47,507 bases of DNA from positions 1 through 47,507 of the forward strand of contig PKUV01000062.1 of assembly GCA_003131315.1 (NCBI GenBank). The letters run 5' to 3'. Positions 19,494 to 43,887 of the stretch are shown here, in pieces (positions within the stretch are counted from its first letter, which is position 1; every line of letters begins with the position of its first letter). The translations under genes and the position numbers were made by a program. A model generated the notes under the pieces. That model worked only from the letters and a program-made list of their open reading frames with translations, did no database searches and was not told where the DNA came from. Source of the DNA: Acidobacteriaceae bacterium. Lineage in GTDB: Bacteria; Acidobacteriota; Terriglobia; Terriglobales; Acidobacteriaceae.

Positions 19494-20330
19494 TTATGGA
19501 GCCCAGAGCGGCGCGTTTGGGTGACACCTTTGGCAGTTGTTGAGCGGGAAAGCGACCTTTCCATGGCAGGCACCGCAGTATCGGCCTTCGATATTAGAAA
19601 ACATCGAGAAGCGGATCGTGCCTTTCTTGGCAGTTGGGAATATTTCGGGATGGCAGAGTTCACAGCCGTTCCAGATGGAATGCTTCTCGTGAGAGAAGGC
19701 AATAGGGTTGACCCACGAGAAACCTGCTTTGACGGAAAAATCTTCCCTGCTCCGCATCGGTGCCTTTTTGACGGATAGACCTTCAACAAAATCGACGGGT
19801 TTGATGACTCCAGATCTCTCCGCCGCCTCCCAATTCACACCGTAAATGCCTTTCGGGAATTTCGCGGTAAACTCCTTGTACTCATATTTCCTTGCGCCCT
19901 TCTTGCCCAGTGAATGGCACCGGTCGCACTGCTTGTCATTCGCGGCATCGGAGCACGCAGCGAAGATGGTTTTTCCATCGAACAACTTCTTCCCATCATG
20001 GCAGGCGCCGCAATGGAAACCTTCGCGGTTCGTGCTCGCTCTGATGCCGGTGGCCTTCGCCTGCATCGCAAAGCCGACATCTACATGGCAGAGCCGGCAG
20101 GTGAACTTGGACCGGTGAAGCCAATGATCGAATACGACGGCACCGGGCCCAGCCGTCGAGTAATTGTCAAGAATCACCTTGCCATACTCTGACGGTTCCG
20201 GTGGAGGTTTAGGCAAATAGATTTGGGCTGACGCGATATTCCCCAGGAGCAAAACTCCGCAGGCCAGCACGAGCAGGAGAAGCCCGCGCTCATTTTTTCT
20301 CGTTCCTTTTTGCATCGAGCACATAGGCAT
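19494..20330 (-). CDS. Exported hexaheme c-type cytochrome (c7-type triheme domains)
   Basis: 278 aa from ATG 20330 (GAGG 5 nt upstream; ATG 20315 is also possible). A signal peptide (GLLLLVLACGVLLLGNIASA) is followed by six CXXCH haem sites: CRLCH, CGACH, CDRCH, CELCH, CGACH, CQRCH. Extra His residues in FDHWLHRSKF and FSHEKHSIW can act as distal ligands. The C-terminal half (FSHEKHSIWNGCELCHPEIF ... CGACHGKVAFPLNNCQRCH) fits the c7-type triheme domain also found in metal-reducing bacteria, and the N-terminal half is a divergent second copy. It would move electrons in the periplasm or at the surface. It overlaps the preceding gene by 41 bp and is a paralogue of the cytochrome at 20644-21444. 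Confidence 0.9.
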   Translation of the reverse strand: MPMCSMQKGTRKNERGLLLLVLACGVLLLGNIASAQIYLPKPPPEPSEYGKVILDNYSTAGPGAVVFDHWLHRSKFTCRLCHVDVGFAMQAKATGIRASTNREGFHCGACHDGKKLFDGKTIFAACSDAANDKQCDRCHSLGKKGARKYEYKEFTAKFPKGIYGVNWEAAERSGVIKPVDFVEGLSVKKAPMRSREDFSVKAGFSWVNPIAFSHEKHSIWNGCELCHPEIFPTAKKGTIRFSMFSNIEGRYCGACHGKVAFPLNNCQRCHPNAPLWAP

Positions 20331-20643: not shown

Positions 20644-21444
20644 TTATACCGGTTTGGAATGGCATCGCTGGCAATCCGCCAAAGGAAATGCCACCGTGGT
20701 ATGGCACACGCCGCAGGACTTTCCTTCGGATATGTCCACCATCGAGTACCGCACGGTGCCCCTTTTCACGCCCATGAATATCTCCGGGTGACAGAGCTCG
20801 CATCCATTCCAGACAGTATGTTTCTTATGGGAGAAGATGATGTCAGGCATTCCCTCAACCTTCGGGTTGAGCGCGAAATCCTTCTGCACGGTGAGAGACT
20901 TCCTTTGTATGGAGACGCCATCGAGAAAACTAGCCGGCTTGATGAGTCCCAACTCCTCCGATTTTTCCCAATCCAGCCCGTTCCCGAAGCGCTCTTTTGG
21001 AAGCGGTTGACTGAATTGGAAGAAGTCGTAATCGGACGCGACCTTCTTTCCGAAGGAGTGGCATCGCTCGCATCTCTTCGCGTCTTCCGCGGTCACCTTC
21101 TTCGAGCAGGATTGGAAGACCGTTTTTCCTTCAGCGACCATCTTCCCGTTATGACAGGCGCCGCAGTAATAGCCTCGCGCGTTGTCCGCGGCCCTGATGC
21201 CCGTGGCTCCGGCCTTCATCGCAAAACCGACGTCCACGTGACAGACTCTGCAGGTGAACTTTGAACGGTGGATCCAATGTTCGAAGACGACGGGCGCAAG
21301 GTCCGCTTTATCGGAGTAGTTGTCGATGATGACCCGGCCGTACTCGTAGGGAAGCGGTCTTTTCTTCTTGGTACCCGTTTGGGATAGGGCTTGACCGCAG
21401 AAAACCAGAATCACCGCCAGTGCAATGAATATTTTTTTGTTCAT
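20644..21444 (-). CDS. Exported hexaheme c-type cytochrome (c7-type triheme domains)
   Basis: 266 aa from ATG 21444, chosen for the excellent AAGGAGG 6 nt upstream; the frame stays open to 21555. A signal peptide (MNKKIFIALAVILVFCGQAL) is followed by six CXXCH motifs: CRVCH, CGACH, CERCH, CELCH, CGVCH, CQRCH. The two halves resemble triheme c7 domains (FEHWIHRSKFTCRVCHVDVG; FSHKKHTVWNGCELCHPEIF). Residue by residue it is close to the cytochrome at 19494-20330, so the pair arose by duplication. First gene of a three-gene operon. Likely a periplasmic or surface electron carrier; the donor and acceptor are not encoded here. Confidence 0.92.
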   Translation of the reverse strand: MNKKIFIALAVILVFCGQALSQTGTKKKRPLPYEYGRVIIDNYSDKADLAPVVFEHWIHRSKFTCRVCHVDVGFAMKAGATGIRAADNARGYYCGACHNGKMVAEGKTVFQSCSKKVTAEDAKRCERCHSFGKKVASDYDFFQFSQPLPKERFGNGLDWEKSEELGLIKPASFLDGVSIQRKSLTVQKDFALNPKVEGMPDIIFSHKKHTVWNGCELCHPEIFMGVKRGTVRYSMVDISEGKSCGVCHTTVAFPLADCQRCHSKPV

Positions 21445-23819: not shown

Positions 23820-26800
23820 TCACGCTCCCTGGTTTGCAGACAAGGCGTGCACCGCGGTGCCTCGCAGCTTGTCGACTACTGCGTCGACCGTTAAAGGCTT
23901 GCTGAAGTAATAGCCTTGAATCTCGTCACAATGATGTGCCCGCAGGAATGACATTTGCGCTTCGTCTTCGACGCCTTCCGCAATCACCTTGAGATGTAGG
24001 CTTTTCGCCATGCTGATGATTGCGGTTGTGATCGCCGCGTCATCAGGATTCACGGCGACTTCTCGGACAAACGAACGGTCGATCTTGAGCTTGCCAACCG
24101 GGAACTGCTTCAAGTAGCTGAGGCTGGAATAGCCGGTCCCAAAGTCGTCAATCGCTAGCGTCAACCCCAGGGCCTTTAATTCCTGAAGAACCGAGGACGT
24201 CACGTCTGCATTCGATAGCAGGAGGCTTTCTGTGAGCTCTAGTTCGAGATATTGCGGGGCGAGGCCGGTCTCGTGGAGCACTCTCTGGATGAGTTCGCAG
24301 AAGCCCTCTTGGCGAAACTGGACCGCTGATACATTTACTGCTACCGGCACCGCGGGAAGCCCTTCGTCTTGCCATTTCCGAGCCTGACGGCAGGCCGTCC
24401 TGAGTACCCATTCACCGATTGGCACGATCAGGCCGCTGTTCTCAGCAATTCGTATGAACTTATCGGGTGGTACAAGGCCCAACTCCGGGTGCTGCCAGCG
24501 GAGGAGCGCTTCCAACCCGGTGATCCGTCCAGTGGCAATATCCATCTGCGGTTGATACACCAGGAAGAGTTCTTCCCTGCCGAGTGCCAGTCGCAAGCTG
24601 TTCTCCAGGGTCAAGCGTTCCATAACCTGGGCGTTCATGTCCTCCGTAAAGAAACGAAACCTGTTACGTCCACCCTGTTTGGCGCAATACATGGCCGCAT
24701 CGGCATTCTTGATCAGGGTTTCACAGTCCGTACCGTGTTCGGGGGAAATACTAATGCCGACGCTGCAGCTGATACTGAGTGAGCGACCTTGAATGACGCA
24801 TGCAGCGGTCATCGCATTCATGATCCGTTCAGCGGCGACTGCTGCGTCGGCTACGTCCTTTACAGCAGTCAACACGATGACGAATTCGTCTCCGCCTACC
24901 CGGGCCACTGTGTCCTGTTCACGCGCAAATCTCTTAAGCCGTTCTGCAACGGCCTGCAGGAAAAGGTCGCCGAACGAGTGCCCGAGCGAGTCGTTAATGG
25001 TTTTGAACCGGTCGAGATCGAGGAACAGAAGCGCAACTTTGTCCTTTCGCCGACGAGCACTGGCGAGTGCCTTTGTTAATCGATCCTGAAGAAGAGTCCG
25101 ATTGGGTAGTCCCGTAAGAGCATCGTAGTAGGCTAAGTATTGGACCCGTTCCTCGGCGACTTTGCGGTCCGTGATGTCCACGTTCGTGCCTTCGTAACCT
25201 ATCAGTACTCCATCTTTGCTCACAGCACGGCCAGTCACAGAGATCCAGATCTTGCTACCGTCTTTGCGATGGACCTGGCACTCAAAGTTCTGTACGACTC
25301 CTTGCTCTTCCATCAAGAGTTGGAACGCCTGGCGACTCTTGGGATCGACGTAGACTTGCCGAGAAATATCACTGACGCTTGTTAGCAGTTCTTGGGGAGA
25401 GTCATAACCAAGCATACGTGCCATCTCTGGATTTACGCCAAGGTAGTGCCCGCTTAGGTCACTTTGGAAAATACCAACGACAGCCCCCTCGTAGATCATG
25501 CGATACTTCTGTTCTGCCTGGCGCAGGGCTTGTTCCGCCAGCTTGCGCTCGGTGATGTCGCGAACGATGGCTTGTAAATACTCTCCCCCAGGAGTGATGA
25601 CCCGATTCAAGCTCACTTCCGCATCAAAGGGGGTTCCGTCATGACGAACATGTTTCCATTCAAAGAATTGCGGCAGGCCCGTCAGCGCAGCGTGTATTTT
25701 CTCGGCCGCCTTTTCGGACGAAAGCCGCCCATCGGGTTGTTCTGACGGTGAGAACTCGACAGGAGAATGGCCAACGATGTCTTCCTTCCGGCATCCGAAG
25801 AGAGTCTCGGCTCGAAGGTTGCAGTCGGAGAATGTTTCTCCTTTCAAAATCATAATGGCATCGTTTGCCGTTTCAAACAGGGTCTTGAATTTGGTCTCGC
25901 TTTGTTGCAGTGCATTTTCCGTCTTCTTGCGCTCGGTGATGTCGCGCACCAGGGTGACCACTTCGTCGTCGTGCAACCGGCTCATCCGGGCTTCGAACAG
26001 GGACTCCTGCCCATCCACGGGCAGCCCGTACTCGAAAGCAACAGGCATCAAGCTCTGCTCCATCTCGTGCAGGGCGTTTTCAAATTGACGTCCCGCTTCT
26101 GCGGGCAACACCGACTGCATTTTTCTCCCCAAAAACTGCTCGGGCGGGGCATACAGTTTGCGTCGGTGGTCGGAGAGATAGTCCAGAATGGTGCCGTCGC
26201 GACGCATACGGAAATACAAGTCAGGCAAGGACTGGAAGACAGCTTGCAGCTCTTCCGTTTTGCGCAACAACTGCTGCTCTGCCTGCTTGCGTTCGGAAAT
26301 GTCCTCCAAGAGTGCCAACAAATGAGGTTCATCCCCATAAATAAAGGGTACGAAACGGGCGTTGACCCAAATCTCTTTGCCGAACGTGGTGGTCATGTGG
26401 GCCTCGCCATGGCAAGGTCCACCGCTTGCCAGCGCTTCCTCGGCCAAGGCCAGCAAACCGGATCGCCGCCAGGATTCTAGGTGGCGAAAATTCTGCGCCG
26501 CGACCTGCTCAATGTTCGCGCCGACCAGTCGAGCGCTGGCAGGGTTGGCGGCCACCGCCTCACCGGAAGCCTTGTAGGTGATGATGCCTAACGGCGATGT
26601 GTCCAATATCTTTTGCGTGTAGCGCAAGGCATCAGCCATTTTTTGCTGCGTTTGCTTTCGCTCGGTGATGTCTTCGTAGGTTCCAATGACGCCGGTCACC
26701 TTGCCCTCCCGGTCGTGCAGGGGCAATTTGTTGGTCCGGAGCCACAGCAGACTTCCGTCGGGCCTGCACTGGGTTTCGTCAAAGTTGAGATTTGCAGATC

Positions 26801-27968
26801 CCTTTTCCATTACCAGCTTGTCATCGGCGCGATAACGTTCTGCCGTCCCGCTCCAGGTGAGATCAAAATCACTTTTGCCGATAATCTCTGCCGGGTTGTT
26901 CAAACCCGCATCGGTCGCAAAAGCCCGGTTGCAGCCCAGGTAGGTGCTGTTCCGGTCCTTCCAAAAGACGCGTTGAGGAATGGTGTCCAGGGTGGACTGA
27001 AGCATCTGGCGTGACCGGTACAGTTCCTCCTCGGCCCGCTTTCGCTCGGTAATGTCATGCTCGATGGCCACGAAATGTGTATCGGCGGCATTGCCGACGT
27101 CTTGGATCACAGGCGTGATCGTCAGCTCTTCGGTGTAGGTTGTTCCATCTTTTCGCCTATTCACAATCTCGCTTTGCCACACCTCGCCTGATGAAATGGT
27201 TGACCAGAGCTTAGCGTAATAGCTTTCAGGTTGCTCTCCGGATTTCAACAGGCGAGGATTCTTGCCCAATGCCTCTTCCTTGCTGTAGCCAGTCATGGTC
27301 GTAAACGCATGATTTACCCAGACGATTGTCCCGTGTCGGTCTGTGATTGTGATCGCGTTAGCGGCCGCTTCTAGCGCGGCTGATTGCAGTCGCAATTGTT
27401 TTTCTGTGCGCCTGCGAGCAGTAATATCTCGTGCAATCTCCGACATCCCGACGAGTTTCCCAGTTCCGTCTTTGATTGGAGAAATCGACAGAGACACGTC
27501 GATGATCGTGCCATTCTTTGTGAGACCTTGCGTTCTAAAATACTCTATGGCTTCCGCGTCTGCGATCTTTTGCAAAAGAACGTGAAGCTCCGCATGTTTC
27601 TCTGGCGGAACAGAAAACGAAATGTTCCGACCTAGTGCTTCAACAGCAGAATAGCCATAAACCCGCTCCGCCCCACGATTCCAGCTAGTTACGTTGCCAT
27701 CCAGCTCTATGCCAATTATGGCGTCGTCCGATTGTTGGACGATGGCCGCGAGCCGCAGCAGTTCTTGTTGCGCAGCTTTCTCCCGCTGACGAGTGATGAA
27801 GCTGATGCAGAACCCAGCACAGCCTGCGAAGAATATGGTGATGCTGTGAGATGCCAGAGCGGACAGTCGAGAAAAATATATTTGCTTCGTGATCTCGTAG
27901 ACCACCGTCGCGCACAACGCCACGAGTCCGACCCGCAAAGCCCTGAGGATTTGAGACTGCTTGGACAT
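23820..27968 (-). CDS. Membrane-anchored multi-PAS diguanylate cyclase/phosphodiesterase
   Basis: 1382 aa. Two membrane helices lie near the start (about 10-32 and 40-60). About seven PAS/PAC units follow, each closing with a version of DITERK (DITARRR, DITERKR, DITERKQ, DISERKQ, DITERKK, DITERKL, DITDRKV). The GGDEF domain has an intact active site RVGGDEF (near residue 1024) and an inhibitory RxxD site five residues upstream (REQD). The EAL domain is also intact: [45 protein letters not shown]. Both synthesis and breakdown of c-di-GMP are therefore possible, with direction set by whatever the PAS array senses. The neighbouring PilZ protein is a likely reader. Confidence 0.93.
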
Positions 27969-29147: not shown

Positions 29148-30362
29148 CTACTTCACAATCTCCTCCGGCACCATCTTCAATATCTCCCGCCCAATCGGCA
29201 ACGACGCCGTCGCCGCCGGAGAAGGCACATTCAGCACATGCAAAAACCGCTCGCGCCCCACAAACCGGAAATCATCCACCAGCGCGCCATCCGCCGCCAC
29301 CGCCTGCGCCCGCACTCCCGCCCCGCCCCGCGTCATATCTTCCATCCGTACCTCCGGCACCAACCGCTGGCAAGACCGCACAAACTCCCGCTTTCGCAGC
29401 GACCGCCGAAACTCCGCCAGCCCATTTTTCCAGTGCTGCCGCGCCATCGCCCGAAACCCCGCATCCATGAACACTTCCATCGTCTCGCCCAAATCAAAAT
29501 CCCGCCACCGGTATCCCTCGCGCCGGAACGCCAGCACCGCATTCGGCCCCGCATCCACATTCCCATGAATTCGCCGCGTGAAGTGCACTCCCAGAAACGG
29601 ATACCGCGGATCCGGCGCCGGATAAATCAGCCCCCGCACCAACTCCTGCCGCGCCGCCGCCAGGTCGTAATACTCCCCGCGAAACGGAACGAGCAGCATT
29701 CCCGGATCATCTCCCGCCAGGCGCGCCACCCGATCGCTATACAGCCCCGCGCAATTCACCACATACCGCGCCGAAAAATCTCCCGCGCGCGTTCGGACCA
29801 CCACCGCGCCCCCCGCCGCGTTCCCCGAACGATCGAATCCCATCACCCCCGCGTTCGTCTTCACCTCTGCCCCGCGTCCCACCGCGATCTCCGCATACTT
29901 CGCCGTCACCGCCGCATAATCCGTGATCCCCGTCGACGGCACTTCCAGCGCTCGCACTCCGCCCACATGCGGCTCGATCTCAAGCATCGCCTCGCGCTCC
30001 AGCAACCGCAAGCCCTCGAGCCCATTCGCCACGCCCCGCGCGAGTAACTCGTCCAGTCGCGCCGCTTCCTCCGAATTAGTAGCCACAATCAATTTCCCGC
30101 ACACCTCATGCGGAATCCCATGTCGAGAGCAGAACTCCACCATCTCTCGCGCCCCCGCTACACACAACCGCGCCTTCAGCGATCCCGCCTTGTAATAAAC
30201 CCCGCTGTGGATCACCCCGCTATTGTGTCCCGTCTGATGCCGAGCCACTCCCGCCTCTTTCTCCAAAACCACCACCCGCAACCGCGGAAACCGCTCGCCC
30301 ACCTGCATGGCAAACGAAAGCCCAACAATCCCCCCGCCAATCACCGCAATGTCATAGGTCAT
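29148..30362 (-). CDS. lhgO: L-2-hydroxyglutarate oxidase/dehydrogenase
   Basis: 404 aa. The FAD-binding start is MTYDIAVIGGGIVGLSFAMQ (GxGxxG), followed by VVVLEKEAGVARHQTGHNSG and VIHSGVYYKAGSLKARLC, the LhgO/L2HGDH hallmark. FVNCAGLYSD-type (YVVNCAGLYSDRVA), VPFRGEYYDL and PFLGVHFTRRIHG are further family motifs. It oxidises L-2-hydroxyglutarate to 2-oxoglutarate and passes electrons to oxygen or the quinone pool, acting as a metabolite-repair or lysine/glutarate-catabolism enzyme. No clear ribosome site was seen before ATG 30362, and a double-hairpin repeat begins 22 bp upstream, possibly in the leader. Confidence 0.93.
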   Translation of the reverse strand: MTYDIAVIGGGIVGLSFAMQVGERFPRLRVVVLEKEAGVARHQTGHNSGVIHSGVYYKAGSLKARLCVAGAREMVEFCSRHGIPHEVCGKLIVATNSEEAARLDELLARGVANGLEGLRLLEREAMLEIEPHVGGVRALEVPSTGITDYAAVTAKYAEIAVGRGAEVKTNAGVMGFDRSGNAAGGAVVVRTRAGDFSARYVVNCAGLYSDRVARLAGDDPGMLLVPFRGEYYDLAAARQELVRGLIYPAPDPRYPFLGVHFTRRIHGNVDAGPNAVLAFRREGYRWRDFDLGETMEVFMDAGFRAMARQHWKNGLAEFRRSLRKREFVRSCQRLVPEVRMEDMTRGGAGVRAQAVAADGALVDDFRFVGRERFLHVLNVPSPAATASLPIGREILKMVPEEIVK

Positions 30363-30383
30363 AAGTTTGTGCGTCTTGTGGAG

Positions 30384-30423
30384 GGACGGGCGTCCCGCCC
30401 GTCCAAGCCGTGCGCAGCACGGC
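30384..30423. repeat. Double-hairpin element, copy 1
   Basis: GGACGGGCG (30384-30392), loop TCC, CGCCCGTCC (30396-30404), spacer AA, GCCGTGC (30407-30413), loop GCA, GCACGGC (30417-30423). Both stems are perfect. The same layout recurs at 31465-31505, 39450-39490 and 46342-46381. Confidence 0.85.
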
Positions 30424-30522: not shown

Positions 30523-30560
30523 GCGGGTGCCCCACGTCTCGCGCTTTTCGAGACGTGGGT
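30523..30560 (+). repeat. 38-bp palindromic element, copy 1
   Basis: GCGGGTGC followed by CCCACGTCTCG, loop CGCTTTT and CGAGACGTGGG (30531-30559), then T. The whole 38 bp recurs exactly, inverted, at 41004-41041. Confidence 0.85.
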
Positions 30561-30632: not shown

Positions 30633-33600
30633 CTACTGCACAATCAGCGTCGCCGCATTCCCATGCGCCGCCCCACCCACAGCCGTAGCCGTTACCGTAA
30701 TCTGCGACGTGCCCACTCCCGTAGGAGACTGCACGGTCACCGTAGCCGACCCCGGCGAGGTCGCCAGCGCCGATGTAGCCGTCACCGTCACCGTCGCCGG
30801 GTTTGGTACCACCGCCGGAGCCGTGTACAACCCGGTCGTGTCCACCGTGCCATTCGCGCTCCCGCCGGTGACCGCCCAGGTTACGCTCTGATTCGATGAG
30901 TTATTCACTGTCGCCGCGAATTGTTTCTGAGTAACTCCCGCCGGCCAAGAGTTACCCGCTTCATTCGCATACAAACTAGCCGACGCCGGACTTACCGTGA
31001 CCGTCACTACCGGTGGCGGGGTGGTGCAGGCGACCTGAACAGTCGTGACATTGGCGGTGGCCGTTCCGCTGCCATTGGTCACCACGCAGGATTGCGTCGG
31101 GCTGGAGGGCTGCGTAAGGACCGCGACGCTATAAGTGTTGCCACTAGCGATGAGTGTGGCGAACGTGAAGCTTCCGTTGGCGCCGACCGGCAGGCGGTCG
31201 CCGCCATTGTCCTGCAACACAAGTCCCGTGCCGGAGAGACCGGAAACCGTGCCGCCAATCGTGTAGGTGTTTGTGGCACCACTACCGCCCCCAACCCCGC
31301 CGCAGGAAATCTCCAACATCAATCCAAGTCCCAAACAAATGCCCGCGATCCAAACGTAGAGACGCGGCTTGCCGCGTCTCTTTCCCCCCAGCCCCACAAT
31401 CCCCGCCATCATCACCCATGCGAGTGTGAAGAAGGACAAAATGTGGGGACGCTCGCTCGTGGAGGGACGGGCGTCCCCGCCCGTCCAAGCCGTGCGCAGC
31501 ACGGCTCCCCTCAACTGCCCCGCCGCGTTCGGCCCCGTCGTCGAAATCGTCACCGTAACCGCCGTCGTCCCCGCCCCCGCCGCAATCGTCGCCGGACTGA
31601 AAGCGCAACTACTCAACGCCGGCAAGCCCGAGCACCCAAAACTCACCGCCGAGCTAAACGTCCCGCCCCCCATCGGAACCGCCGAAAATGTATAGCTCGC
31701 GCTCTGTCCCGCCAGCACCGTTGCCGTAGCGCTGCCCGTGTCCGTCCACGTCACATCCGTCCCCACCGTCAGCGTCTCAGTCGCCGTGGCGTGCGTCAGC
31801 GTCCCGTCCGTTCCCTGGATCGTGAAGTTGAACGCCCCTGTAGTCGCGTTACCCAGCGTCACCGTAAACCCAGTTCCCCCTGCCGTCGGCGTCACCGTCG
31901 GCGGCGTAATCCCGCAGGTCCCCGGAGCACCCGCCGTACACGTCAACGACACGCTCCCGCTGTATCCGTTCACCGCCGTCAGCGTCCCGTTCCACGTTAC
32001 GTTCTGATTCGCCACCGTCACATTCGGAGTCCCCGTCACCGCAATCGTAAAGTCCGGAGTGGGCGCCGTCACCGTCAGCCCGAACGTCTGCGTCTTGGCC
32101 GAAGGCGCTCCCGTCGCCATCGCCGAGATCGTCACCGTCCTCGGACCACCCAACGGAGTTCCTGCCGACGCCGTCACCGTCAACGTAACCGTCACCGGTG
32201 CCGAAGACGTCGGACTCACCGAACTCGATGGCGAGAACACGCAAGTCGCTCCCGTCGGCAGCCCCGCCGAGCAGCTCAGCGCTACCGTCCCCGCAAAACT
32301 TCCCGCCGCCGTCACCTGGAACGTGCTCGCCGCCGACGTTCCGCCCTGCGCCACACTCAACGAATTCGGACTGGGCGCCGTCAGATTGAAGTCCACCACA
32401 TGCAGCGTTACCGTCGCATCGCGCGTGATCGAGTCTCGGTCGGTTCCTACCGCGTGCGCGTTAAAGCTGTAATCGCCCACCAGTCCGCTCGCCGTCAACG
32501 TATACGTGGCAGTTGGCGTTTCCTGCGTCGGATGCAGTGTGCAAGTGCTCGGCAGCGCTCCGCTGCAATTCAAGTTCACCGGGCTCGCATATCCGTTCTG
32601 CGCCGTCAAAGTACCGTTGAACGTGGCAGTCTGTGTCGGAAACACCGTCTGCGGCGAAGTCGAAATCACATTCGTGTAGTCTGCCGACGTCACCAGCGCA
32701 TAGTTCCAAATGCCCCGCCCGTACGTCGATGCCAGCAGCGTCTTTGTGCCCGTGTCGGGATTAAAAATCTGCAGCGCCGTTACCGGCGCTTCGGGCAGAA
32801 ATCCCGATACACCCTGACCCGGCGTTGGACCGACTTCAGTCCAATCCGCAGCGCTTGTTGAACTGACAAAAACGCCTACGTCGGTTCCCGCATAAACCTG
32901 CCCCGCTTGCGAATCCACCAGCAACGCGTTCACTGGAGCATCCGGGAACCCCATCGCCGTTCCCGTCCCAGTCCAGTCCGTCCAACTAGCGCCGGCATTC
33001 GTGGTCTTCCAAACATGCGAGGTCGGGTACCCCTGCGTACTGAAGCCCATGACCCCGACATACGCGGTCTTGCCCGTCGCATCGGACGTATCCATCGCGA
33101 CCGCCGCAATCGCATACCCGTGCGGATTCACATTCTGGGTTACATTTGTCATCAAACTGACGCCGGCGTTGGTTGTCACCCACACTTCGCCCCCCGGCGA
33201 CCCGCTCAGCGGCCCATATCCGTTCGTCACCGCATACACCACCGTGGAATTGTTGTGAATGTCTTTTGGACCGCCCGCGGCCAGCGCATTCACCAGGTTG
33301 ATCTCACCACCCGTGCACGCGCCCGTCCCTAACGTGTCGAAGTCATTGCTGAGCTGCAACGGTGCGGTTCCGACAGTGCTGATCCGCCACACCCGGCAGG
33401 TTCCCACCAGCAATTCGCTGGTATTCTGCTGATCCAGAATGTAGGGAGTATAGAAAGCTCCCTGGTCTCCTCCCAGACTGGCCGAACTGACGACCTCGAA
33501 GAATCCAGCCTCGTTACAGGCCGTTCCCAACTCGCACTTCACAATCGTGACGTAGGGGTTCGCCGCGAACCACTCGTTGGGGTTCGCAGGATTGATCGCA

Positions 33601-35548
33601 TTGAATCCGCCATCCCCGCCCAGCGCATTCTGCCAGGTCGTGCTGCTGGTCGCGCTGCTGGTCTTAGGGGAGCCGTTATCCTGCGTTCCCCCCAATAGAA
33701 TGTCCGCGCTCGTCGGGTGCGCCGAGAACGAAACGAACTCCGTCATCGAGCCCAGGCTTTTGCTCAGGCTGTCAAACTGATTCGTCCCCGCGCAACTCCC
33801 GGTGTGCAGCCCGGCATAGCCATCGAGCGTCCGGCTGATTCCGCCGTCATGCGCGAAGTAGCCGACCGCTTTGCCACCTGCAACCATGAACGCGATCCCG
33901 TGTTGGTCCGGATGCACGTGGGCCGGCGCTCCCAGCGGGCTGCACCCATAGACGTGAGTTAAATTGATCCAGGCGCCTTGATTGCAGGTCGTGCCTCCTG
34001 TTAACGTGCACTTGTAAAGATTGATCGCGCCCGCGTAGAGATCCGTTATCCCCGCTCCATTCGGGACCGCCGCCAACTCCAGGTTGTACCAACCCTGCTC
34101 CACCCCGCAGCCGCTGTTCGCCCCAAACGCGCTGTCACCGCAATTCGTGATGCCGTTGTCTGGGATCGGTGTCCATTTCGCTCCGCCGTCGGTCGATTGA
34201 TAGATGCCCTCGTCAACGGGCGCCGAGCCTGGCTGCACATCGACAACCCACACATACATCTCGTTGCGCCCCGGTACCACCGCGAACTCGCCGCGATAGA
34301 TCAGGCAACTGCTCGCGTTCGAACCGGCAGGGCAATTCGCGGTTGCAAGTCCTGTGATGGGCAGTGTGGTCAGCCGTGTAAAAGTCTGGCCGTCGGTCGA
34401 GGAGTACAGCCCGTGTCGCCGAATAAAGACGTAGAACGTCCCGTTGCTTCCCTGGTTAGGGTTGTAAATCACGGCCGTCGCCGAGGCAGGGACTGCGCCA
34501 TCCGAGAGGGTCGCACGGTTCCACGTCACTCCACCGTCCTGAGAGTAGTAAAGTCCGCGCGCGGTCGAATTCCCATCCTCTTCCCGGCCAACGTACAAGC
34601 CGTTGTCTCCCGCCGTCGCCGCCACCACCAGGCTGGAATTCGCCGTGCTGAATGCGATCTTGCTGAAACCAATTCCCAGAAACGATTGCCCCGTTCCCGC
34701 GTTCTGGATCTGCGTCCACGTCGAGCCTCCATCCGCGGAACGCAGAATTCCCAGGCCGTAATAAGAATCGCCCGAACTGTTCGTCTCTCCGGTCCCGACC
34801 AGAATGACGTTGCTGTTTCCCGGGCACATGACCGGCTGCAAAGCAATCGCCCCCACCGCCAGCGTCGGCTCATCGTCAATCAACGCCTGCCATGTGACCG
34901 AAGCAGGATTGGGACTCAGACTGCCTGCGTTCGTCGACTTCCAAAGCCCGCCATACGCGCCGCCCAGCAGCACCGTGTTTCCCGTGCAGTCCGCAGGATC
35001 GATCAGTACCGAAGTAGCCCGCCCCGAGACCCAGTTGTAATCCTGCGCGCCATCGCCCGTAGCATCGGAAGCAAGCGGAGCCGGTCCCAGCGGCGTCCAC
35101 ACCGTGAACCCCGAATTGGAGAACGAAGACGCCGGTTCAGATATTGATGCGGGTCCGGGAAACGTCCCGGCGGCTCTCATCCTTTCACTCGCAGTCGCAG
35201 CGGCATTCGCAACCGCAGCCGCGCGCTGTGCCCGCATCGCCATCTTCTGCTGATAAGCCCGAAACCGCAGCCCCGCCGCCGATTTCCCCCCAGGCACACT
35301 CCGCCCCCGCTGGTTCCAGTTCCAGTCCAACCGATCCCGCAGATAAGGACGATCCCCGTCGCGATCTTCACCTCTTTTCTCAACGCTTTTTTCAGAAGAC
35401 GACGAGTAAGTTGTTTTCCTGTCCGACTCCTGCGCGAAGGCGCTGCCTGAAAACCGCCGCTGAAAACTCCGCCGAAAAGAGAAACGAAAGCCGCGACGAA
35501 GAGAACGAAGAAAATAAAAAGAGGAGAACGCACACCACGGCTGGCCAT
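30633..35548 (-). CDS. Giant exported BNR/sortilin-like repeat protein with Ig-like domains (apparent N-terminal frameshift)
   Basis: About 1640 aa. The main frame (open 30633-35588) holds BNR/VPS10-like repeats (GLWKSTNAGS, ILRSADGGSTWTQIQNAG, LYSSTDGQTFTRL, VWKTTNAGASWTDW), several Ig-like domains (YTNVISTSPQTVFPTQTATF, DFTIAVTGTPNVTVANQNVT), a hydrophobic stretch (SFFTLAWVMMAGIVGLGG ... YVWIAGICLGLGLMLEISCG) and a C-terminal Big domain. In the main frame the N-terminus is not a signal peptide, but the overlapping frame from ATG 35548 begins MASRGVRSPLFIFFVLFVAA, a good one. Adding one T in the run at 35450-35453 joins it to SGSAFA|QES with a proper cleavage site. Palindromes at 31465-31505 and 31358-31381 lie in frame inside the C-terminal part. 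Likely cell-surface or secreted; function unknown. Confidence 0.82.
31358..31381. repeat. 24-bp palindrome inside the giant BNR/Ig gene
   Basis: AGAGACGCGGC (31358-31368), TT, GCCGCGTCTCT (31371-31381), perfect arms. It encodes KRRGKPRL on the minus strand. A diverged copy is at 46227-46250. Confidence 0.8.
31465..31505. repeat. Double-hairpin element, copy 2, in the giant BNR/Ig gene
   Basis: GGACGGGCG (31465-31473), loop TCCC, CGCCCGTCC (31478-31486), AA, GCCGTGC (31489-31495), GCA, GCACGGC (31499-31505). Same as copy 1 but for one loop base. Translated in frame on the minus strand as AVLRTAWTGGDARPS. Confidence 0.85.
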
Positions 35549-35738
35549 AAATTGAAACGCTATTTTGCGCCGGCGCGACGCAGCGCACATGTAAAGTTTC
35601 AATGATTAAACAGAGATTTAAACGTCCACGAAAGTCCCCCCGTCCTTGGTATCCAATTTCGAAAAGCTGAGAACTGAGGACCGAGAGCTGAGAGCTGAGA
35701 GCTGACAGCCGAACGCTGCCGATCCGCCCAACATCCGC

Positions 35739-36465: not shown

Positions 36466-39400
36466 ATGACAGACTTTCTCCAAATCGTAAAAGAACGCGT
36501 CGTCATTTATGACGGCGCTATGGGGACGAATATTCAGAAGCGGAATCCTACCCTGGACGATTACTGGGGCAAGGAGAACTGCAGCGAAGTTCTGGTGCTG
36601 AGCCGTCCCGATATTATTCGCGAGATTCATGCGGACTTTTTCCGCGTGGGCTGCGACATCGTAGAGACGAATACCTTCGGCGGGACGGGCCTCGTTCTAG
36701 GCGAGTTCGATCTGCGCGACAAAGTGCGCGAGATCAACCTGAAGGCGGCGCAACTCGCCAGGGAAGTGGCGCAGCAATTTTCGACCAAGGACAAACCCCG
36801 GTTCGTGGCCGGATCGATGGGGCCGACGACAAAATTGCCCTCGCTCGGACACATCGGTTGGGACGCGATGTTGGAGTCCTATGAAGAGCAGGCATTGGCG
36901 CTGATCGAGGGCGGCGTCGATGTGATGCTGATTGAGACGTGCCAGGACTTGCTACAGGCGAAGATTGCCACGGTCGCCGTGCTGGGGGCAATGCGCAAGA
37001 CGGGAAAGCGGCTGCCGGTTACGGTGCAGGTCACGCTGCAGGATACCGGCACCATGCTGCTCGGGACCGAGATTGGCGCGGCGCTGACCGCGCTTGAACC
37101 GTACGACATCGACATCATTGGTCTGAACTGCGCGACCGGTCCGGCGGAGATGAATGAGGCAGTCCGGTATCTGGGGCTGAACTCCACCAAATACATTTCG
37201 GTTTTGCCGAATGCGGGCCTGCCGCAGAACGAGGGCGGCCACGCGGTGTACAAGCTCGCGCCCAAAGACTTGGCGGAGTATCACAAGCACTTCGTGCAGG
37301 ATTACGGCGTACGCATTGTCGGCGGATGTTGCGGGACGACTCCCGAACATCTGAAAGCCGTAGTGGATGCGGTTTCCGGCGTCGAGCCGGCGAAGCGGGA
37401 TGTGAAGCCGGTGGGCGCGGCTTCGAGCGCCTACACATCGGTGCCACTCGATCTGGAGCCGAAGCCCCTAATCGTCGCGGAAGAGATGAACACCACGACG
37501 CGGGTCGATCATTTCCGCAAGCTGGTGCAAGCCAAGAAGTATGACGACATTCTGACGCTGGCGAAAAAACTGGCGAACCAAGGTTCGCACATGCTCGACC
37601 TGTGCTGCGCCATTGTGGGCGAAGACGAGAAGGGTTACATTTCCGCCATACTGGAAAAAATCGCGACCCGCGTGCCCGCGCCGATACTGATCGACAGCAC
37701 CGAGGCCGACGTGGTCGAAGAGGCGCTGAAGCGCATTCCGGGCAAAGCCATTATCAACTCCATCAATCTGGAAGACGGCGAGAAACGGACTTCGAAAGTG
37801 CTGCCGATGGCGAAGCGATACGGCGCGGGAGTAATCGCGCTGACCATCGATGAAGAGGGCATGGCGCTGACGGCGGACAGGAAAGTTGCGATTGCGCATC
37901 GCATCTTCGATCTGGCGACAAAAAAGTACGGCATCCGTCCGGTGGACTTGCTCTTCGACGCGCTGACACTCCCGATTTCCACGGGGCAGGAAGAATACCG
38001 GTCGGCTGGAATTGAAACCTTGAAGGCGGTGAAGCGCATCCGGGAGGAATTGCCGGAAGTGAAGACGGTGCTCGGGGTCAGCAACATCAGCTTCGGGCTG
38101 GACGCGTATCCGCGGCGCGTTCTGAACTCGGTGTTTCTGCACGAGGCGGTGGAGAACGGGCTGGACGTTGCCATCGTCAATTACACGAAGATTTATCCGC
38201 TGTACAAGATTCCGGCGGAAGAAGTGGAACTGGCGCGCAAGCTGATTTATCAGGACCGCTCCAATGGCGATCCGCTCCAGGTTTACATGCAGCATTTCGC
38301 CGGCGTGAAAGGCAAGGCGCAGGCGCAGACGACCGCGCACGTCGAAACCCTCTCAATCGAGGACAAGCTCAAGTATGCGATCATCAACGGCGAAAAATCG
38401 GTGGGCGAGGGCAAAACCAAGCGCAGCCTGGAAGAGTTGCTGGAAGCGGCGCTCGTCGAGTACAAGCCGCTCGACCTGATCAACACCGTGCTGCTCGACG
38501 GCATGAAGACGGTAGGCGACTTGTTCGGAGCGCGCAAGATGCAGTTGCCGTCGGTGCTCGATTCGGCCGGAGTAATGAAGGCAGCCGTAGCCTATCTAGA
38601 GCCGAAAATGGAAAAGAGAACCGGCTCGCAACAAAAGGGAACGATCGTGCTCGCCACGGTGAAGGGCGATGTACACGACATAGGTAAGAATCTAGTCGAC
38701 ATCATCCTATCGAACAACGGCTACAAAGTTGTGAACCTCGGAATCAAGCAGCCCGGCGACGCGATCATCCGCTCGGCGCAGGAGCACAAGGCCGACGCGA
38801 TCGGGCTGAGCGGCTTGCTGGTGAAGTCCACGCTGGAGATGAAGTACGTGATCCAGGAACTGGAACGGCAGAAGCTGGCGTATCCGGTGATCTGCGGGGG
38901 CGCGGCCCTAACACGGAAGTATGTGGAAGACGATCTGCGGCGCGAGTATTCGAATGCCGTGTTCTACGGGGAAGATGCGTTCGCGGGACTCCACGTGATG
39001 CAAGATCTGGCGGGTGAGGACGGCAAGCGCGAGGCGCGGCTGAAGGATGGCAGGACGGTGAAGGAATACGCGAAGGCCGCAGCGGTGGATGAGGAGACCG
39101 GCCCAGTGTTTTCGGAGCGCAGCGCGGTGGTGACCGATGCGCCGAATATTCCCGAGCCTCCGTTCTGGGGCGTGCGCGTGGTGAAGAATTACGACCTTCG
39201 CGAAATTTTCAATTACATAAACGACACGGCTTTGTTCAAGAATCAATGGCAGCTCAAGACGGCGTCGCAGGAAGATTACGCGCGGCTGGTGGAGGAGAAA
39301 TACCGTCCGATCAAAAAGAAGCTGGAAGAGGAAGTGCTGGCGGCAGGTTGGTTCGAGCCGAAGGTTGTGTACGGATATTTTCCAGCGCAAGGCGACGGCA

Positions 39401-40044
39401 ACGACGTAGTAGTGTACGACCCCAGCTCGTGTAGGGATAGGGAGTGTGGGGACGGGCGCCCTCGCCCGTCCAAGCCGAGCGAAGCTCGGCAGCAGCCGGC
39501 ACCGGCTGGGCGGACGGGGGTGTCAGCCCCAACGCAAGCAACGGAACTCCTCCGCTTCACCTTCCCGCGCCAGAAGGAAGGCCGTCGCCTTTGCATCTCC
39601 GATTTCTTCGCCGCGCCGTCATCGGGGAAGATGGATGTGATTGGCCTGTCGTTGGTGACGATTGGTCCGAAGGCGTCGGTCGAAACGCAGCGCCTGTTCG
39701 AGGGCGGAGAATACACGCGCTATCTGTATCTGCACGGCCTAAGCGTGGAGACGGCCGAGGCGCTGGCCGAATTCCACCATAAGAAGATGCGAGAAGAGTT
39801 AGGAATCGCAGCCGAAGACTCGCCGCACATCCGCGATCTCTTTCATCAGAAGTATCGCGGGTCGCGGTATTCGTTCGGCTATCCGGCGTGTCCGCACCTG
39901 GAGGACCAGACAAAGCTCTTCGCGCTGCTCAAGCCGGAGGAGAACGTGGGCGTGCGTCTGACTTCGGGTTTCTTGCTGGAGCCGGAGCAGAGCACGTCGG
40001 CGATTGTGGTGCATCATCCGGGGGCTAAGTATTTTGTGGTGTAG
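36466..40044 (+). CDS. metH: Cobalamin-dependent methionine synthase
   Basis: 1192 aa, all four modules in order. Homocysteine module about 1-320: GGCCGTTPEH and LNCATGP give the three Zn Cys. Pterin (methyl-THF) module about 340-610. Cap and B12 module about 650-890: VKGDVHDIGKNLVD near residue 736 contains the DxHxxG cobalt-ligand His. AdoMet reactivation module about 915-1192: RYSFGYPACPHLEDQ near 1134. It transfers a methyl group from methyl-THF to homocysteine through methylcobalamin. An odd in-frame insert of about 35 residues (from DPSSCRDRECGDGRP to APTQATELLRF) splits the activation module between VVVYDPSS and LLRFTFPRQKEGRRLCISDF. It is encoded by a palindromic repeat element (39450-39490 and flanks). 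Whether reactivation still works is unknown. Confidence 0.96.
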   Translation: MTDFLQIVKERVVIYDGAMGTNIQKRNPTLDDYWGKENCSEVLVLSRPDIIREIHADFFRVGCDIVETNTFGGTGLVLGEFDLRDKVREINLKAAQLAREVAQQFSTKDKPRFVAGSMGPTTKLPSLGHIGWDAMLESYEEQALALIEGGVDVMLIETCQDLLQAKIATVAVLGAMRKTGKRLPVTVQVTLQDTGTMLLGTEIGAALTALEPYDIDIIGLNCATGPAEMNEAVRYLGLNSTKYISVLPNAGLPQNEGGHAVYKLAPKDLAEYHKHFVQDYGVRIVGGCCGTTPEHLKAVVDAVSGVEPAKRDVKPVGAASSAYTSVPLDLEPKPLIVAEEMNTTTRVDHFRKLVQAKKYDDILTLAKKLANQGSHMLDLCCAIVGEDEKGYISAILEKIATRVPAPILIDSTEADVVEEALKRIPGKAIINSINLEDGEKRTSKVLPMAKRYGAGVIALTIDEEGMALTADRKVAIAHRIFDLATKKYGIRPVDLLFDALTLPISTGQEEYRSAGIETLKAVKRIREELPEVKTVLGVSNISFGLDAYPRRVLNSVFLHEAVENGLDVAIVNYTKIYPLYKIPAEEVELARKLIYQDRSNGDPLQVYMQHFAGVKGKAQAQTTAHVETLSIEDKLKYAIINGEKSVGEGKTKRSLEELLEAALVEYKPLDLINTVLLDGMKTVGDLFGARKMQLPSVLDSAGVMKAAVAYLEPKMEKRTGSQQKGTIVLATVKGDVHDIGKNLVDIILSNNGYKVVNLGIKQPGDAIIRSAQEHKADAIGLSGLLVKSTLEMKYVIQELERQKLAYPVICGGAALTRKYVEDDLRREYSNAVFYGEDAFAGLHVMQDLAGEDGKREARLKDGRTVKEYAKAAAVDEETGPVFSERSAVVTDAPNIPEPPFWGVRVVKNYDLREIFNYINDTALFKNQWQLKTASQEDYARLVEEKYRPIKKKLEEEVLAAGWFEPKVVYGYFPAQGDGNDVVVYDPSSCRDRECGDGRPRPSKPSEARQQPAPAGRTGVSAPTQATELLRFTFPRQKEGRRLCISDFFAAPSSGKMDVIGLSLVTIGPKASVETQRLFEGGEYTRYLYLHGLSVETAEALAEFHHKKMREELGIAAEDSPHIRDLFHQKYRGSRYSFGYPACPHLEDQTKLFALLKPEENVGVRLTSGFLLEPEQSTSAIVVHHPGAKYFVV
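39450..39490. repeat. Double-hairpin element, copy 3, inside metH
   Basis: GGACGGGCG (39450-39458), loop CCCT, CGCCCGTCC (39463-39471), AA, GCCGAGC (39474-39480), GAA, GCTCGGC (39484-39490). Both stems perfect. A third small stem AGCCGG-ca-CCGGCT follows (39494-39507). Read in frame as GDGRPRPSKPSEARQQ. Confidence 0.9.
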
Positions 40045-40915: not shown

Positions 40916-40937
40916 CTGAATTCTCGAGGGTGCCCCG
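40889..40937 (+). repeat. Distant copy of the 50-bp dispersed repeat
   Basis: GCGGGTGGCCCGGCCTATCG... then CTCGAGGGTGCCCCG, aligning with the copies at 21759 and 22601 but with several substitutions. It runs straight into the palindrome at 40927-40965. Confidence 0.5.
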
Positions 40938-40965
40938 CCCAAGCGGAGCTTGGACGGGGCACCCT
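40927..40965. repeat. Nested palindrome AGGGTGCCCCG ... CGGGGCACCCT
   Basis: Outer arms of 11 bp (40927-40937, 40955-40965) and inner arms CCAAGC (40939-40944) / GCTTGG (40948-40953) around GGA. A half-decayed copy sits at 43836-43862. Confidence 0.8.
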
Positions 40966-41003: not shown

Positions 41004-41041
41004 ACCCACGTCTCGAAAAGCGCGAGACGTGGGGCACCCGC
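41004..41041 (-). repeat. 38-bp palindromic element, copy 2
   Basis: Exact reverse complement of 30523-30560: CCCACGTCTCG (41005-41015), loop AAAAGCG, CGAGACGTGGG (41023-41033), then GGCACCCGC. It lies between two minus-strand genes. Confidence 0.85.
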
Positions 41042-43808: not shown

Positions 43809-43835
43809 AAGGCTGGCGGACGAGCAACACCCCTG

Positions 43836-43862
43836 CCCAAGCGGAGTTTGGACGGGGCACCC
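43836..43862 (+). repeat. Half-decayed copy of the 40927 palindrome
   Basis: CCCAAGCGGAGTTTGGACGG continues into GGCACCC, matching the right part of 40938-40964 with one change. The left arm has diverged. Confidence 0.65.
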
Positions 43863-43887
43863 TCCTGATTTCGCCAACTGCCGCTCA

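Follow-up and report, generated by a model that had tools for sequence, protein, structure and literature searches.

Rickettsia palindromic elements (RPEs) are said to go back to original papers by Ogata and colleagues. As summarized in passages of two papers (PMC10969869, PMC2996958), RPEs and the Wolbachia palindromic elements are short, fall into several families per genome, and lie in frame within genes, typically at places that encode non-structured protein segments. The GTAG/CGTC-tagged repetitive extragenic palindromic sequences (REPs) carry a foot tetranucleotide and are placed predominantly downstream of coding regions in the main text of Di Nocera et al. (2013, PMC3733652). The same text locates some REPs inside ORFs of many species, including that of UvrD/REP helicase, and describes differing REPs at about the same recB site in X. 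campestris and X. oryzae. The words "methionine synthase" are absent from this main text. Among non-subscription papers, searches with these wordings returned none pairing "Sulfotelmatobacter" with "palindromic" and none pairing "methionine synthase" with "repetitive extragenic palindromic". Protein-coding palindromes and intragenic REPs are already known, and the repeats in the acidobacterial MetH loop described here behave like them.

The loop was found in a 47,507-nt stretch of DNA, referred to as the window, from an Acidobacteriaceae bacterium whose draft genome comprises 6.0 Mb in 194 contigs. Its nearest named relatives are Acidobacteriota MAGs, judged by their titles (Acidobacteriaceae, Terriglobia or Terriglobales), and the rows compared include Candidatus Sulfotelmatobacter. 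An earlier note on this DNA drew a parallel to the elements of Rickettsia, which is apt as a likeness: set against the cited passages, and compared by descriptions only, the acidobacterial repeats are also short, palindromic, of several families, and in frame in genes. Unlike RPEs, they reside in an acidobacterial host with a 6.0 Mb genome (draft relatives 2.9 to 6.1 Mb); in one loop, several families alternate from species to species, a single family can have a different reading frame from one protein to the next, and one family matches the flanks of RAYT genes. Like the REPs presented in the main text of PMC3733652, the window's family has a foot tetranucleotide and some copies within ORFs, UvrD among them; unlike those REPs, the acidobacterial loop turns over across dozens of relatives and holds nested and inverted copies.

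The insert in the MetH activation domain

The window MetH scores 1228.8 bits against the TIGR02082 metH profile (cut-off 1010.85) and is encoded by an intact single open frame of 1192 aa that runs through the insert. The features of the gene and its insert are as follows.

36466 to 40044, plus strand: metH, B12-dependent methionine synthase (TIGR02082; Pfam S-methyl_trans, Pterin_bind, B12-binding(2), and Met_synt_B12 at residues 910-1192)
39425 to 39443, plus strand: probable partial duplicate of the element head, GCTCGTGTAGGGATAGGGA, as we read it against the gctcGTGTGGGGACGGGCG heads of genomic copies
39427 to 39540, plus strand: the part of the activation-domain loop that derives from the repeat, with the in-frame reading SCRDRECGDGRPRPSKPSEARQQPAPAGRTGVSAPTQA; the insert includes the peptide segment SKPSEARQQPAPAGR (predicted translation)
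39446 to 39449, plus strand: GTGG, the foot tetranucleotide on which stem 1 stands (of the 37 copies oriented by hairpin 2, 35 have GTGG, GTAG or GGAG here)
39450 to 39471, plus strand: hairpin 1 with a perfect 9-bp stem, GGACGGGCG-CCCT-CGCCCGTCC
39474 to 39490, plus strand: hairpin 2 with a 7-bp stem, GCCGAGC-GAA-GCTCGGC
39493 to 39508, plus strand: small third stem, CAGCCGG-CA-CCGGCTG
39512 to 39539, minus strand: probable decayed element head in inverse orientation, GCTTGCGTTGGGG..., compared with the reverse-oriented copies in MetH loops L079, L056 and L066

The insert is flanked by VVVY-DPSS and ELLRFTFPRQ. From anchor YGYFP to anchor FPRQ, 68 residues intervene in the window MetH and 32 to 33 in the least-filled relatives, so the figure of about 35 extra residues given in the earlier note is correct. 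Its double hairpin at 39450-39490 and additional small stem were likewise found, and the frame is kept as it had stated. Calling the enzyme essential was too strong and has been dropped, because the source genome also holds a MetE-type synthase (PF01717, 517 bits, 785-aa frame, L235 at G000:C19:19076-20044), and MetH need not be essential. In the solved MetH chains 8ssc and 8ssd, which we take to come from Thermus, the same site is a short connection, VFSPETGEVLERFRFPRQ.

The element head GCTCGTGTAGGG begins already within the "PSS" codons of MetH, and the 3' part resembles a decayed inverse head, so the boundary of the insert does not read as one sharp edge. In our reading, positions 39512-39539 would make an inverted pair with the main copy.

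A repeat family spread over the genus

The hairpin-1 stem occurs in 60 exact copies in the source genome, where a reversed-pattern control gave 0, so the palindrome is not a product of chance. It is present in 21 of 24 genus genomes, with up to 128 copies in one, and controls were 0 in all 24. By BLAST, 100 bases of the insert have at least 41 matches at E<=0.01, itself included, a lower bound with 40 of 153 first-look candidates scored. The layout gctcGTGTGGGGACGGGCGCCCTCGCCCGTCCAAGCCGAGCGCAGCTCGGC is common to most of the 30 copies fetched, which often end in a similar tail, and several copies start at or beside a stop codon triplet (by eye). REPs of the GTAG superfamily are marked by an unpaired GTAG-type tetranucleotide at one end of a palindrome of 20-40 bp, and such a foot stands beside the palindrome here: it reads GTGG in 20, GTAG in 9, GGAG in 6, and otherwise in 2 of the 37 copies oriented by hairpin 2. 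The strict GTAG form is thus confined to 9 of 37, and we take GTGG and GGAG to be variants of it. Compensated versions of the stem exist (GGACGGGCG, GGACAGCCG, GGACGGCCG, and GGACGGACG); the search demanded perfect stems and took classes A and C jointly, C being A in reverse orientation, and these counts are no measure of how often stems are broken.

Many copies and a mainly extragenic location are also properties of the REP GTAG superfamily; here there are 60 exact stems, and 4 of 30 examined copies (from at least 41 places) lie in frame in Pfam-supported proteins, the others being presumably for the most part extragenic. Window-type stems, totalled as the sums of two stem-pattern counts, number 84 in the source genome, 89 in G017, 93 in G003, and 156 in G009 (each 5.5 to 6.0 Mb), and 38 in G018. 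Four loop motifs counted across the genus were present in 21, 19, 21, and 21 of 24 genomes, with controls at 0. Stop-free frames make up 156 of 168 in the family copies, taken without the MetH copy and one copy containing N, compared with a mean of 138.6 and a maximum of 149 in 200 shuffles, an excess that amounts to about one observation because the copies are related. The palindrome had been described as mobile; its nature as a genome-wide repeat stands, and the copy number and distribution of the family suggest its mobility.

Two more copies lie in the window.

31459 to 31505, minus strand: second in-frame intragenic copy, inside a 1651-aa ORF (30633-35588, minus)
30377 to 30423, plus strand: further copy, just upstream of an ORF (29148-30362, minus)

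The 1651-aa ORF has weak Pfam matches, to BNR/sortilin alone, and its double-hairpin copy sits shortly before a hydrophobic C-terminal stretch. The window also contains other repeats. A 33-nt palindromic pair (40933-40965 and 43831-43863, 94% alike, CCCCGCCCAAGCGGAGCTTGGACGGGGCACCCT) lies downstream of metH. A 103-nt direct repeat (20038-20140 and 21191-21293) is 80% alike, its copies 1153 bases apart, and six repeats at 25149-27056, spaced 360 to 384 nt within a 1382-aa ORF (23820-27968, minus), have the look of tandem domains.

Turnover of the loop among relatives

No other site of MetH varies as much in length as the loop: taken as the gap from window residue 988 to 1024, it has a variance of 134, compared with 17.9 for the next gap (72 sequences, after 9 of 81 shorter than 1000 aa were left out). 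The gap spans 0 to 47 residues in 28 different lengths, and the loop itself 10 to 58 residues when one misparsed row and L111 (another phylum, 74 residues) are set aside. Of 59 distinct loops, 30 matched repeats elsewhere and the other 29 had no repeat match, whereas control segments of equal length from MetH matched in 2 of 590 cases and shuffled sequences in 1 of 590; the search was made against 0.54 Mb of DNA with MetH activation domains masked. The 59 loops are free of duplicates, of rows below 60% identity, and of anchor-pattern failures (e.g., L050, L073, L100, L082-L087).

The fillings are diverse. The window's family occurs in the window orientation in the window, L036, L035, L037, L039, and others, and in the other orientation in L079, L056, and L066. 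A second palindrome, GCGGGACGCCGGCGCTAC, is found in L079, L052, and L057, with a near-identical form in L051, and a two-hairpin GGCACGGCTTCAGCCGTGCC element in L039 and L099. A TTCGAC/GCTCAGG element is nested inside others in L035, L099, L069, and L047. Further relatives carry 7-mer tandem repeats or ACAGAGG-type repeats. The insert had been expected to be absent from most relatives, with exact boundaries revealing its target site. Neither holds: many relatives contain some filling, often a different repeat, and the target site therefore cannot be read off. An exact site and a target duplication were sought and given up as undefinable, the nearest relatives carrying repeats too, and the empty loops L076 and L098 share no target motif evident by eye.

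A tree of 74 MetH rows was computed with the loop removed (four rows, L045, L078, L089, and L095, kept it since the cut pattern failed), and 23 of its 71 inner branches are weak. On this tree, eight hand-assigned repeat classes require at least 9, 5, 6, 5, 2, 7, 4, and 2 changes, and any class versus none requires 14. Since class C is the family of class A turned round, the numbers point to turnover and do not count insertions. Supported sister pairs with differing loops include L043/L046 (support 100), L072/L074 (99), and L051/L068 (97), and the cleanest contrast is between L054, which carries a palindrome, and L076, which is empty (100). The 14-row clade around the window may go back to one ancestral entry with later remodelling, and as such a history also fits, insertions were not counted as wholly independent.

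A single frame runs through the loop in every one of the 80 relatives examined. The frame shift in L101 and L018 (the same gene; query residues 245-288) and the in-frame stop in L057 both lie downstream of the loop and are either draft-assembly errors or decay. We infer that selection on MetH acts through the loop.

The same pattern in other proteins

As with RPEs, in-frame insertions in conserved genes are seen in the source genome. Its four hosts with Pfam support are the MetH enzyme, a UvrD/PcrA helicase, a PF02636 methyltransferase, and an MFS transporter. The ORFs for DHDPS (L121) and an F420 oxidoreductase (L141) were not counted, as the element lies ahead of the domain and possibly ahead of the real start. 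What is seen in MetH recurs in a second and a third protein: among genus relatives, both the linker of UvrD and the loop of PF02636 vary and are rich in repeats. The UvrD/PcrA copy is placed between UvrD_C and the tudor domain, and this linker matches repeats in 13 of 19 loci compared with 6 of 190 controls (anchors found in 19 of 24 loci). The PF02636 loop matches repeats in 7 of 8 compared with 0 of 80 controls, its anchors being found in 8 of 23 loci only. The window's family is read in three forward frames, as CGDGRPRPSKPSEARQ in MetH, VGTGALARPA in UvrD, and VWGRVPLPVQAERSSA in PF02636, and since the frame differs among the three, no single peptide is being kept.

Link to RAYT transposases

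Matches to Y1_Tnp number 11 in the source genome and 36 in four other genus genomes, and 41 of these 47 were examined as RAYT loci (five genomes, 128 kb). The likeness to RAYT/REPtron systems lies in the 11 matches of the source genome and in loci L145, L150, and L154, where, as in L219, inverted TTYA hairpins stand to either side. The 128 kb of RAYT loci contain 13 such hairpins, as many as 613 kb of other loci. The likeness extends to the L145 unit, which is inserted in frame in the PF02636 genes of five relatives. Its RAYT-flanking copy and the PF02636 insert of L183 agree in 75 of 83 columns and score 61, where 300 random comparisons reached 25 at most. At the level of sequence, one loop-inserted family clearly matches, and can be equated with, units that flank a RAYT gene. 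In the source genome's own PF02636 gene, a family-A element occupies the place of the inner part of the L145-type unit. In the PF02636 gene (L132/L180), a family-A palindrome appears to have taken the place of the interior of a RAYT-flanking unit that was there before it, a nested insertion in the coding loop.

For a second family, present in MetH loops, the link is modest. The MetH insert of L039 and the one-sided flank of RAYT L223 agree in 55 of 67 columns spanning both hairpins, with a score of 41 compared with a random maximum of 34 (300 comparisons), and its score of 32 with the flank of RAYT L226 falls below that maximum and within the random range.

For the window's own family, any RAYT link is tentative: two palindromes of its type were found in the 41 RAYT loci, none of them on both sides, and its motif was not found in the 11 RAYT loci of the source genome. 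One of the two, the GGACAGCCG version with foot GTGG, is in L234 (position 1843), where it follows the RAYT match at a distance of 70 bases and on one side only. Given the genome-wide density of window-type stems, two in 128 kb is no clear excess. Elsewhere in the window, at 30531-30559 and 41005-41033, stands a hairpin CCCACGTCTCG..CGAGACGTGGG with similar stems (CCCAGGTCTCG..., CCCACTTCTCG...) in RAYT locus L148, which may represent another RAYT-linked REP family.

Origin of the insert

Very probably, a REP-like palindromic repeat came into the MetH activation domain at a tolerant loop and is now translated together with the rest of the enzyme. The element has two hairpins and a GTGG/GTAG/GGAG foot, and would form an inverted pair with one partner decayed. 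Short repeats of several families, at least one from a RAYT-type HUH transposase system, would insert or convert DNA genome-wide. Copies landing in the tolerant loop in frame and without a stop would survive, the GC-rich palindromes of this kind usually being open in most of six frames, and frame-shifting copies would be removed by selection on MetH. The loop would then be overwritten again by other repeats, its content turning over between close relatives. For the window's own family, transposition would be the route, and its peptide is presumably translated and probably neutral for MetH.

Three other explanations can be set against the entry of a REP-like repeat. It is possible that the loop peptide is a functional, selected addition, such as a contact for a reductase partner or a regulatory tail, and that the palindrome is incidental. 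The clade around the window does keep the related peptide SKPSEARQ in the MetH of several species. Sister MetH loops carry unrelated peptides or none, the lengths range widely as given above, and the repeat takes other reading frames in other proteins, all of which make a selected peptide unlikely. Alternatively, the hairpin itself may be kept for a role in the metH transcript as a pause, attenuator or mRNA stabilizer. The 114-nt insert folds stably (MFE -63.8 kcal/mol, z -3.27, with 0 of 200 shuffles equally stable), and stems are perfect in several MetH copies although the stem sequence differs. Yet many relatives have tandem 7-mers or no hairpin at the site, the site lies deep within the coding region, and an Rfam scan of the window gave no match at gathering scores, so that we regard a transcript role as very unlikely.

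The least probable explanation, and one we would give hardly any weight, is that the loop is merely disordered and grows by slippage and local duplication, its likeness to genomic repeats being compositional. This would suit loops L041, L049, and L106, which are simple tandem runs (L041 being a duplicate of L013 and L049 of L015). It sits poorly with the same-gene controls and shuffles (2 and 1 of 590, respectively, compared with 30 of 59 loops) and with the whole two-hairpin elements, nested elements, and 80-bp RAYT-flanking unit (PF02636) that are still recognizable.

A clade-wide reading can be entertained tentatively, with the scale tipped slightly against it. Several palindrome families, at least one clearly RAYT-associated, would repeatedly overwrite "landing-pad" loops of MetH, PcrA/UvrD, and the PF02636 methyltransferase, the peptide being reassigned between species. 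The elements would be more stop-free in six frames than composition predicts, as if repeats able to pass through genes had spread.

Significance

The MetH loop looks like a place where wandering repeats repeatedly become protein. With unrelated repeats filling one loop in dozens of relatives, nature provides a replicated trial of how foreign segments are taken up by proteins, and the frame is kept in every relative examined despite the unrelated fillings. Protein-coding palindromes are thereby extended to the larger genomes of Acidobacteriota, with at least one family tied to a RAYT transposase, and the old question of their neutrality or usefulness becomes directly testable in one enzyme.
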